The notes under the pieces are model-generated. The model was not told where the DNA came from. It saw nothing but the letters and a program-made list of their open reading frames with translations, and searched no databases. Made by a program: the position numbers and the translations under genes. A stretch of DNA of 64,000 bases from NCBI GenBank assembly GCA_030655315.1, contig JAURVT010000050.1, positions 62,001 through 126,000 on the forward strand, read 5' to 3'. Numbering within the stretch: the first letter of the stretch is position 1; every line of letters begins with the position of its first letter. Positions 14,317 to 15,560 of this stretch are shown one piece after another. Origin of the DNA: Nocardioidaceae bacterium (GTDB lineage: Bacteria; Actinomycetota; Actinomycetes; Propionibacteriales; Nocardioidaceae).

Positions 14317-14330
14317 CGTCCAGGGGGGGT

Positions 14331-14402
14331 GAACAGGAGCGAAACTTGTTCACGTCGGTCTTTACACGCGAACAAGTTCTGAGTAGGTTCTGAACAGGTT
14401 CT
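14331..14402 (+). promoter_or_regulatory. promoter of the WhiB gene overlaid by repeated GAACnnGTTC palindromes
   Basis: TTTACA (14361-14366), 17 nt, TAGGTT (14384-14389) form a good promoter. GAACAAGTTC (14370-14379) fills the spacer and GAACAGGTTC (14392-14401) covers the expected start, 22 bp apart, i.e. two helical turns. AACTTGTTC at 14343-14351 pairs with GAACAAGTT at 14370-14378 across the -35, and GAACAGGAGC at 14331 is a degenerate copy. This is the layout of a repressor or autoregulatory site; the binding protein is unknown. Confidence 0.6.
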
Positions 14403-14451
14403 ACCGCAACACCTCTCACAGCACCCGCTCTCGGCGACGAAGGACCCTCCC

Positions 14452-14736
14452 ATGGCGAACCTCACCCGGCTCCCGGCTCCCACCCAGGACAGCTACGAGT
14501 GGCAGTACGACGGTGCCTGCAACGACGCCGACCCCGAGACCTTCTTCTCGCCCGAGTTCGAGCGCGGCCCGCGTCGCCGGGCCCGCGAGAACGCGGCCAA
14601 GTCCTTCTGCGCCCGCTGCCCCGTCATCGACACCTGCCGCGAGCACGCGCTGAGCGTCCAGGAGCCCTTCGGTGTGTGGGGCGGCCTCACCACCCACGAG
14701 CGCGAGAGCGTCCTGCAGCAGCGCGCGGTCTCCTGA
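14452..14736 (+). CDS. WhiB-family iron-sulfur transcriptional regulator (WhiB3/WhiD-like)
   Basis: 94 aa. Four cysteines C23, C53, C56 and C62 would hold a [4Fe-4S] cluster that senses redox state or NO; the GVWGGL turn (74-79) follows. It lacks the long basic tail of some members. The pattern WQYDGACNDADPETFF and ARCPVIDTCREHAL matches the WhiB3/WhiD branch best. WhiB proteins act with sigma factor region 4 at promoters. The upstream promoter carries phased palindromes, so expression is probably tightly regulated. The PrmC-like gene follows 38 bases later. Confidence 0.92.
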   Translation: MANLTRLPAPTQDSYEWQYDGACNDADPETFFSPEFERGPRRRARENAAKSFCARCPVIDTCREHALSVQEPFGVWGGLTTHERESVLQQRAVS

Positions 14737-14774
14737 CCGACGGTCGCACCGGGGCCGGCGCGCCCGACGTCCTG

Positions 14775-15560
14775 GTGCGAGCTCTCCGCGCCGGTGGCTC
14801 GGTCTTCGCCGAGGAGGAGGCCGCCGAGATCCTCCGGCACGGGCTGAGCGACTCCGAGCGGGACGAGGTCGTGCGACGCCGCACCGCCGGCGTCCCCCTC
14901 GAGCACCTGCTCGGCAGCGTCGCCCTGGCCGGCCTCGACCTCCGGGTCGACGCCGGCCTCTTCGTGCCCCGGGCCCGGACCGGCCTGTTGAGCGCACGGG
15001 CGGTGTCGGCCTGCCGCACCCGGCCGGGTGCGGTCTTCGTCGAGCTCTGCTGCGGCGTCGCGCCGCTCGCGGCGGCCGTCGAGCGTGCAGGGGTGGCCGA
15101 CGTCCTGGTCGCCACCGACGTCGACCCACGGTGCGCACCGGCAGCGTCCGCGAACGTGCCGACGGCGCTCGTCGGCACCGGCGACCTCTTCGACGGCGTC
15201 CCCTCCCACCTGCGGGGACGCCTCGACGTCGTCGCCGCCGTGCCGCCCTACGTGCCCGACGACGACCTCGTCCTGCTGCCGCCCGAGGCGCGGGACCACG
15301 AGCCGCGGGGGGCCCTGCTCGGCGGACCCGACGGTCTCGACGTGGTGCGGCGGATGGTGGGCCGTGCACCGGAGTGGCTGTCCAGCCGGGGTGTCCTCCT
15401 GGTCGAGGTCAGCCGGGCCCAGGCCCCGGCGGCGATCCGCGCGGGGGTCGATGCCGGCCTCGTCGCCGAGCGGCTGGACCTGCGCGCCGACCGGACCGCC
15501 GTCGTCTCCTGGCGGGCCGGCGGGCCCGACCCATGGTCACCGGGCCCCCGGCGGACGTAG
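14775..15560 (+). CDS. PrmC/HemK-like methyltransferase with altered NPPY motif
   Basis: 261 aa. Belongs to the class of putative protein N5-glutamine methyltransferases (SAM-dependent). N-terminal helical domain with RRRTAGVPLEHLLGS, then GLFVPRARTGLL, SAM site VELCCGVAPLAAAVE and ATDVDP acidic residue, and the PEARDHEPRGALLGGPDGLD region typical of the subgroup. The catalytic N-P-P-Y (or N-A-P-Y) signature reads A-V-P-P-Y here: the asparagine that binds the glutamine amide is missing. GTG at 14775 is chosen from the expected domain start; the region between the whiB stop and this codon has no clear ribosome site. Likely cotranscribed with whiB. Confidence 0.75.
   Translation: MRALRAGGSVFAEEEAAEILRHGLSDSERDEVVRRRTAGVPLEHLLGSVALAGLDLRVDAGLFVPRARTGLLSARAVSACRTRPGAVFVELCCGVAPLAAAVERAGVADVLVATDVDPRCAPAASANVPTALVGTGDLFDGVPSHLRGRLDVVAAVPPYVPDDDLVLLPPEARDHEPRGALLGGPDGLDVVRRMVGRAPEWLSSRGVLLVEVSRAQAPAAIRAGVDAGLVAERLDLRADRTAVVSWRAGGPDPWSPGPRRT

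Follow-up and report, generated by a model that had tools for sequence, protein, structure and literature searches.

Tandem 11-bp repeats over a whiB promoter in a Nocardioidaceae bacterium, a probable operator of a CarH-like MerR-family repressor

The CarH proteins bind tandem 11-bp repeats of the form nnnnTnnACAn that overlap the -35 or the -10 box of a promoter, and the published operators also include degenerate repeats (PMC9304148). Class II LitR proteins bind the sequence TGTACA-N12-TGTACA (PMC9758184). Here, we describe a repeat element upstream of a whiB gene in 64,000 nucleotides of DNA from a Nocardioidaceae bacterium (assembly GCA_030655315.1, contig JAURVT010000050.1, positions 62,001 to 126,000; the window, whose first nucleotide is position 1). 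The element is probably the operator of a MerR-family repressor of the CarH/LitR class, which would keep the whiB gene off until a signal releases the repressor. WhiB3/WhiD-class proteins are redox regulators of actinobacteria, and what turns their genes on is often unclear. The features of the region are the following, with bit scores from a motif matrix described below.

14330..14335, plus strand: single TGAACA, the upstream half-matching copy of the initial annotation; may be an outlying half-unit
14342..14352, minus strand: Box A, an inverted copy, TGAACAAGTTT, upstream of the -35 box; matrix hit of 13.5 bits starting at 14353 (minus strand)
14361..14366, plus strand: putative -35 box TTTACA, TTGCCA-like in several relatives; absent from the consensus-scan list
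14369..14379, plus strand: repeat 1, CGAACAAGTTC, in the promoter spacer; holds the first palindrome; matrix hit of 22.1 bits starting at 14368
14380..14390, plus strand: repeat 2, TGAGTAGGTTC, which overlaps the -10 box and has a degenerate TnnACA; matrix hit of 25.6 bits starting at 14379
14384..14389, plus strand: putative -10 box TAGGTT, 17-bp spacer from TTTACA; absent from the consensus-scan list
14391..14401, plus strand: repeat 3, TGAACAGGTTC, in which TnnACA is complete; lies over the likely start site and contains the second palindrome
14452..14736, plus strand: whiB gene, 94 amino acids, WhiB3/WhiD-type by similarity; Pfam PF02467, E value of 4.4e-24

The three direct repeats, which begin at 14369, 14380, and 14391, together span 14369 to 14401, where the base is identical 11 bp onward at 16 of 22 positions. 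That score is reached by only 3 of 63,967 stretches compared, which overlap one another and all lie at this site, making this the strongest 11-bp repeat of the 64 kb. The 11-bp period noted in the initial annotation is thus real. That annotation had taken as its unit a palindrome, of which two copies do occur 22 bp apart (GAACAAGTTC at 14370 to 14379 and GAACAGGTTC at 14392 to 14401), and the sequence GAACNNGTTC is found 4 times in the window against 0.27 expected, a count reached in none of 100 shuffles. However, the 11-bp direct repeat is the main feature of the site and a better reading than phased palindromes, which are a by-product of a TGAACAAGTTC-like direct-repeat unit of 11 bp. The palindrome GAACARGTTC alone is not specific, as 20 of its 28 occurrences in the window genome (0 in the reversed control) are inside predicted genes; among the 8 noncoding ones, 6 belong to three whiB promoters and one SRPBCC-gene promoter, and the other two (L072 and L074) are unexplained. 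The proposed half-matching copy upstream is present as the TGAACA at 14330, but the better upstream element is Box A, read on the minus strand from 14352 to 14342; its AACTTGTTCA recurs, by eye, at a similar place in the paralogue L004 and in several family members. TTTACA and TAGGTT are separated by 17 bp as had been described, although to call this a good promoter was an overstatement, since it matches 8 of 12 consensus bases by our own count and the consensus scan listed no promoter here.

Judged by sequence, the geometry and the core of these repeats are those of the CarH/LitR family. Tandem 11-bp direct repeats with a TnnACA core that overlap promoter boxes are shared with the CarH systems of Thermus, Bacillus, and Myxococcus, as is a divergent or nearby MerR gene whose product combines a helix-turn-helix (HTH) with a B12-type domain and has full-length similarity to CarH. 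In contrast to those systems, which act on carotenoid genes, the target here is a WhiB3-class gene; a full TnnACA is found in one of the three window repeats (14391), with a near match at 14369 (CGAACA, C for T) and a degenerate one at 14380; and many of the regulators described below lack Wx9EH or parts of the B12 motif. The class II LitR protein PmlR2 of Pseudomonas is likewise a MerR-class repressor acting on TGTACA-type sites with N12 spacing over a promoter, but the core here is TGAACA, and PmlR2, which has no second B12 domain, is controlled by a LOV protein (PMC9758184).

Upstream regions were compared among the paralogues and 36 named loci, members of the window's family, and genomes across the class. 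The initial annotation had named missing conservation upstream of whiB orthologues beforehand as its refutation; a 22-bp motif was in fact found to precede WhiB3-class genes in many actinobacterial families. Its proposal of a target for an unknown regulator of such genes is therefore borne out in the conservation of the site, whereas the kind of regulator is probably a known one, a CarH/LitR-class MerR protein. Expectation-maximization on 72 promoters flanked by a divergent MerR gene, taken after dereplication, returned the motif TTGAACAActTnTGaanCGGTT, with a confident site in 64 of the 72 and a log-likelihood of 723, against 73 to 86 for four shuffled sets that were run with less effort (12 seeds and 25 iterations, against 25 seeds and 40 iterations for the real set). 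Before these counts, 21 of 139 upstream sequences had been removed (at least 70% similar, short, or N-rich), and the near-identical L092, L093, and L095 remained. The 72-promoter matrix, from which the window promoter was excluded, has its top window hits at 14379, 14368, and Box A, and the next best hit elsewhere scores 10.7 bits. A matrix from 47 MerR-flanked promoters outside the family also detects the window site at a score reached by none of 200 shuffles; those promoters had been gathered with an earlier matrix whose training set included family promoters but not that of the window. Identity between bases 11 bp apart (lag 11) is 0.45 for the sites of the family (17 promoters) and 0.49 for those of the window genome (4 promoters), versus 0.16 to 0.29 at other lags (0.18 to 0.29 in the family).

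By eye, the layout in the window's family consists of AACTTGTTCA, a TTGCCA-like -35 box, TGAACAAGTTnTG in the spacer, a TAnGTT -10 box, and TGAACAnGTT over the start. Outside the family, the motif reads TTGAACAACyTnTGrnnCGGTTG with TTGAAC as the -35 box, so that the promoter boxes are shifted relative to it. Such movement of the boxes relative to the conserved sequence fits a protein-binding site better than a promoter. The motif was not detected in the single promoter L189, which we take to be from Streptomyces, or in the tested promoters of Amycolatopsis, Kutzneria, Actinokineospora, and Demequina, which may be the reason that it has been overlooked so far.

Genome scans placed most copies of the motif before WhiB3-class genes. 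In the window genome, ARGTTNTGANNARGTT has 5 exact matches (reversed control, 0), which lie in three whiB promoters, two of them in that of the window, and before one SRPBCC/polyketide-cyclase gene; allowing one mismatch adds 4 more, at the fourth whiB (L004), a second time at the L005 promoter, and at L053 and L055. Across 61 family genomes, GAACARGTTNTGNNTANGTT with at most one mismatch gave 9 matches in 5 genomes versus 2 for the reversed control, with 6 before WhiB3-class genes, 1 before the SRPBCC gene, and L124 and L129 before neither. The L124 site (L244 4089-4110, on G056:C11) is the strongest motif hit of its stretch, at 34.7 bits, and precedes an 82-amino-acid gene without a Pfam match that, in our own reading, adjoins an RsbW-like ATPase gene. 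Among 296 genomes of the class, TTGAMCAACNTNTGNNNCG gave 45 matches in 44 genomes versus 15 for the control; by coordinates, a WhiB3-class gene begins at most 200 bp downstream of 35 of the 45, and L230, on inspection, makes this 36 of the 45. The remaining 9 comprise two before an MFS-like transporter gene (G087 and G064), five with no whiB in view (L193, L196, L200, L218, and L229), and those in G171 and G168. The two transporter sites (G087:C64, L227; G064:C13, L228) are from one family, and both have TTGAACAACTTTTGGAGCGATTTGTG at the very start of the gene.

The SRPBCC/polyketide-cyclase gene of the window genome (PF10604; L226 4753-4775, G000:C12:55752-55773) has a promoter with two exact TGAACA copies 11 bp apart. 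It is the only place in the 4.18 Mb of that genome where TGAACAN5TGAACA occurs exactly; one mismatch yields two more, and the control gives one. This suggests that the SRPBCC gene is a second kind of target for the same candidate regulator.

The whiB product of the window contains a WhiB domain with cysteines in the pattern C-Xn-C-X2-C-X5-C and an arginine-rich RGPRRRAR, as read in the translation; it matched 0 families of NCBIfam, and its assignment to the WhiB3/WhiD class is by similarity. It shares with that class PF02467, the arginine-rich stretch after the first cysteine, and the VWGGL turn (class features from PMC10245118). Unlike what is described for the class, six close paralogues occur in one genome here, as the window genome has five further close whiB paralogues (58 to 77% identity) in addition to five weaker matches, and four of the six close paralogues carry the motif. 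Directly downstream of the window whiB, 14733 to 15557 resembles a PrmC-related N5-glutamine methyltransferase (TIGR03704, below its cutoff).

A candidate regulator of the expected kind is encoded next to many of these sites. Among 90 loci read with 1.2 to 3 kb of sequence upstream, a set that was not dereplicated, 56 encode a MerR-type HTH divergently from whiB, with the HTH motif 167 to 457 bp upstream of the gene. A Pfam scan of six MerR-type proteins found MerR_1 in all six and B12-binding_2 in five, and the protein at L018, from a metagenome-assembled actinobacterium, matches CarH (5c8d, 3whp) with an E value of 2e-19. In 56 full-length MerR-type proteins, Wx9EH, an adenosylcobalamin (AdoCbl) contact in CarH, is present in 37, [DE]xHxx[GP] in 26, and both in 24.

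The window genome encodes a CarH-like protein on another contig (G000:C11:230148-231074), which matches CarH in two stretches with an E value of 1.2e-23 and contains MerR_1 (4e-14) followed by B12-binding_2 (1e-5), with no match to B12-binding (PF02310). It has Wx9EH as WFDGALGVDSEH; of the motif D/ExHx2G/P-x41-SxT/V-x22-27-GG, DLHALP and the GG are present, and the S position is, by eye, W. Its gene adjoins a divergent whiB paralogue whose promoter has the same motif, and it ends an amine oxidase-DUF1365-cyclopropane/CMAS operon, pointing towards it (L221 827-5183). A similar operon in Aeromicrobium (L014 and L028) ends with another WhiB3-class paralogue. In Pseudomonas, LitR proteins control light-induced genes that include the one for the fatty acid enzyme UfaM (PMC9758184), and in our own reading the CMAS gene of the operon is UfaM-like. 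Elsewhere in the genome (L248 4215-4517; G000:C9:256289-256537), a short frame encoding a CarH-like HTH, its match interrupted by one TGA, looks like a remnant; the L248 stretch holds, in our own reading, an isoprenoid-type gene set.

Candidate regulator and target also occur together. A close WhiB3-class gene (E ≤ 1e-25) was found in 27 of 61 family genomes, and a CarH-like match at E ≤ 1e-33, a cutoff picked after the list had been viewed, was found in 20 of those 27 and in 0 of the 34 genomes without the gene (Fisher, 1e-10). At E ≤ 1e-12, the counts are 22 of 27 and 6 of 34 (Fisher, 6e-7); because the genomes are related, both P values are too small. In the genome G056, a CarH-like gene unlinked to whiB has three tandem repeats just upstream (TGGACAAGTTT, TGCACAACTTG, and TGCGCAAGTTT; L244 10557-10590, G056:C11), which suggests that it regulates itself, and the whiB gene on another contig also carries the motif.

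Several observations weigh against a CarH-like repressor at the window site. There is no MerR gene beside the window's whiB, and its control must therefore be in trans. The link between motif and neighboring MerR gene is loose within the family, where the motif is present in 16 of 25 promoters with such a neighbor and 7 of 21 without (Fisher, 0.075). For five of the seven, the genome encodes a CarH-like protein at an unlinked place (three promoters of the window genome, L119 in G052, and L012, which we take to be L085 of G056 because the sequence is identical); the other two are L088 and L013, and the genome of L088, G007, has no CarH-like match at 1e-12. Outside the family, 25 promoters had no detected MerR gene, and 5 of them carry the motif (at most 1 in 100 shuffles); each of the five was read with 400 bp of sequence upstream, at which length a more distant MerR gene would escape detection. 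Six CarH-like loci that do not adjoin whiB were inspected: that of G056 has a clear operator, that of G017 has a weak hit of 13.9 bits, and nothing of the kind lies near the other four. No operator was found around the amine oxidase-DUF1365-CMAS operon in four genomes (L250 to L253), so its direct control is unsupported, and we regard it as context only. Lag-11 identity is weak outside the family, at 0.31, with lag 9 at 0.30 (47 promoters). Finally, Wx9EH is absent from 19 of the 56 MerR-type proteins, and the window-genome copy, by eye, does not keep the B12 motif at SxT/V; the signal may thus be something other than light in some relatives.

Other explanations fit less well. One is autoregulation, with WhiB3-class proteins on region 4 of sigma-A recognizing the motif at their own promoters. 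WhiB3 binds region 4 of sigma-A, and DNA through its arginine-rich stretch (PMC10245118), and 36 of the 45 class-scan matches precede WhiB3-class genes. However, most WhiB3-class promoters without a MerR neighbor fall below the motif threshold (14 of 21 within the family, 20 of 25 in other families), the motif also stands before a CarH-like gene and an SRPBCC gene, and it extends to the start site, far from the expected place of a protein bound to sigma region 4; we consider autoregulation improbable. It is similarly doubtful that a CarH-like MerR protein binds the site but activates, as classical MerR does from the promoter spacer. In the other families, the motif fills the 17 to 18 bp between the -35 and -10 boxes with an inverted repeat, CAACC-N8-GGTTG, like classical MerR sites, but the repeats of the window's family cover the -10 box and the start site, classical MerR promoters have spacers of 19 to 20 bp (PMC5859096), and CarH-class proteins of known function repress (PMC9304148). 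Very improbable is a preferred promoter form without a dedicated regulator, to which the coincidence of the motif with the -35 box (TTGAAC or TTGACC) and its end beside the -10 box in other families would point, since the sequence is constant while the boxes shift (over -10 in the window's family, over -35 elsewhere), conservation extends to the spacer, and in G122 the motif occurs twice, 26 bp apart.

Operators of other known regulators were compared with the site and set aside. The LexA SOS box is GAAC-N4-GTTC, and the palindromes here have a spacing of N2 rather than N4. The KstR site, TNNAACNNGTTNNA, shares the core AACNNGTT, but its outer T/A are unmet in the first copy (G at 14368 and at 14381) and half met in the second (C at 14390, A at 14403), and the unit here, unlike that of KstR, is a direct repeat. 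Between 14325 and 14415, there is no likeness by eye to the BldM group I site TCACcCgnncGgGTGA (PMC4125116) and no AATT as in the 9-bp direct repeats AATTnnnnC of BldC, the period here being 11 (PMC5859096). The repeats of the WblI operator (CTTCGAS and CTTGACGC; PMC5373594) have no match. The available part of a review of Wbl proteins names no such site (PMC6282962), and a search with the literal 10-mer returned, by title, only mammalian topics. A literature search found no link between CarH or LitR and WhiB, which is weak evidence of absence because most subscription papers were outside its scope; in the part of PMC12672707 available, LitR and WhiB are treated in separate passages.

What the sequences show is a set of repeats that are conserved and phased at 11 bp, a CarH-like gene that lies divergently at many loci, its co-occurrence with whiB in the family, and the motif before one unlinked CarH-like gene; from these we infer that the protein binds the site and represses rather than activates, that it acts on the window copy in trans, and that it responds to light or B12. 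With a CarH-like repressor, protomers would bind the 11-bp repeats head to tail, each reading TGAACA (TnnACA), and the bound repressor would cover the spacer, the -10 box, and the start site, thus keeping whiB off. A signal, by homology the photolysis of AdoCbl by light or else another ligand of the B12-type domain, would release the repressor and turn on the WhiB3-class Fe-S regulator. In the window genome, the best candidate is the product of G000:C11:230148-231074, which would act on the window whiB from its other contig. More tentatively, and with somewhat less than even confidence, we suggest that a CarH-type B12- or light-sensing repressor controls WhiB3-class genes in many actinobacterial families and that one such protein here may run at least four scattered whiB paralogues and the SRPBCC gene in trans.

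The CarH-type operator is already known, and what would be new is WhiB3-class genes as its target class. For WhiB3/WhiD-class genes, the analysis puts forward a candidate regulator together with the unit that it would bind and a signal that can be tested, and it gives the CarH-like MerR proteins of Actinomycetes a concrete candidate target. If true, this would be a light-to-redox circuit not described in the literature searched, in which a light- or B12-type sensor is tied to a stress regulator in many actinobacteria.
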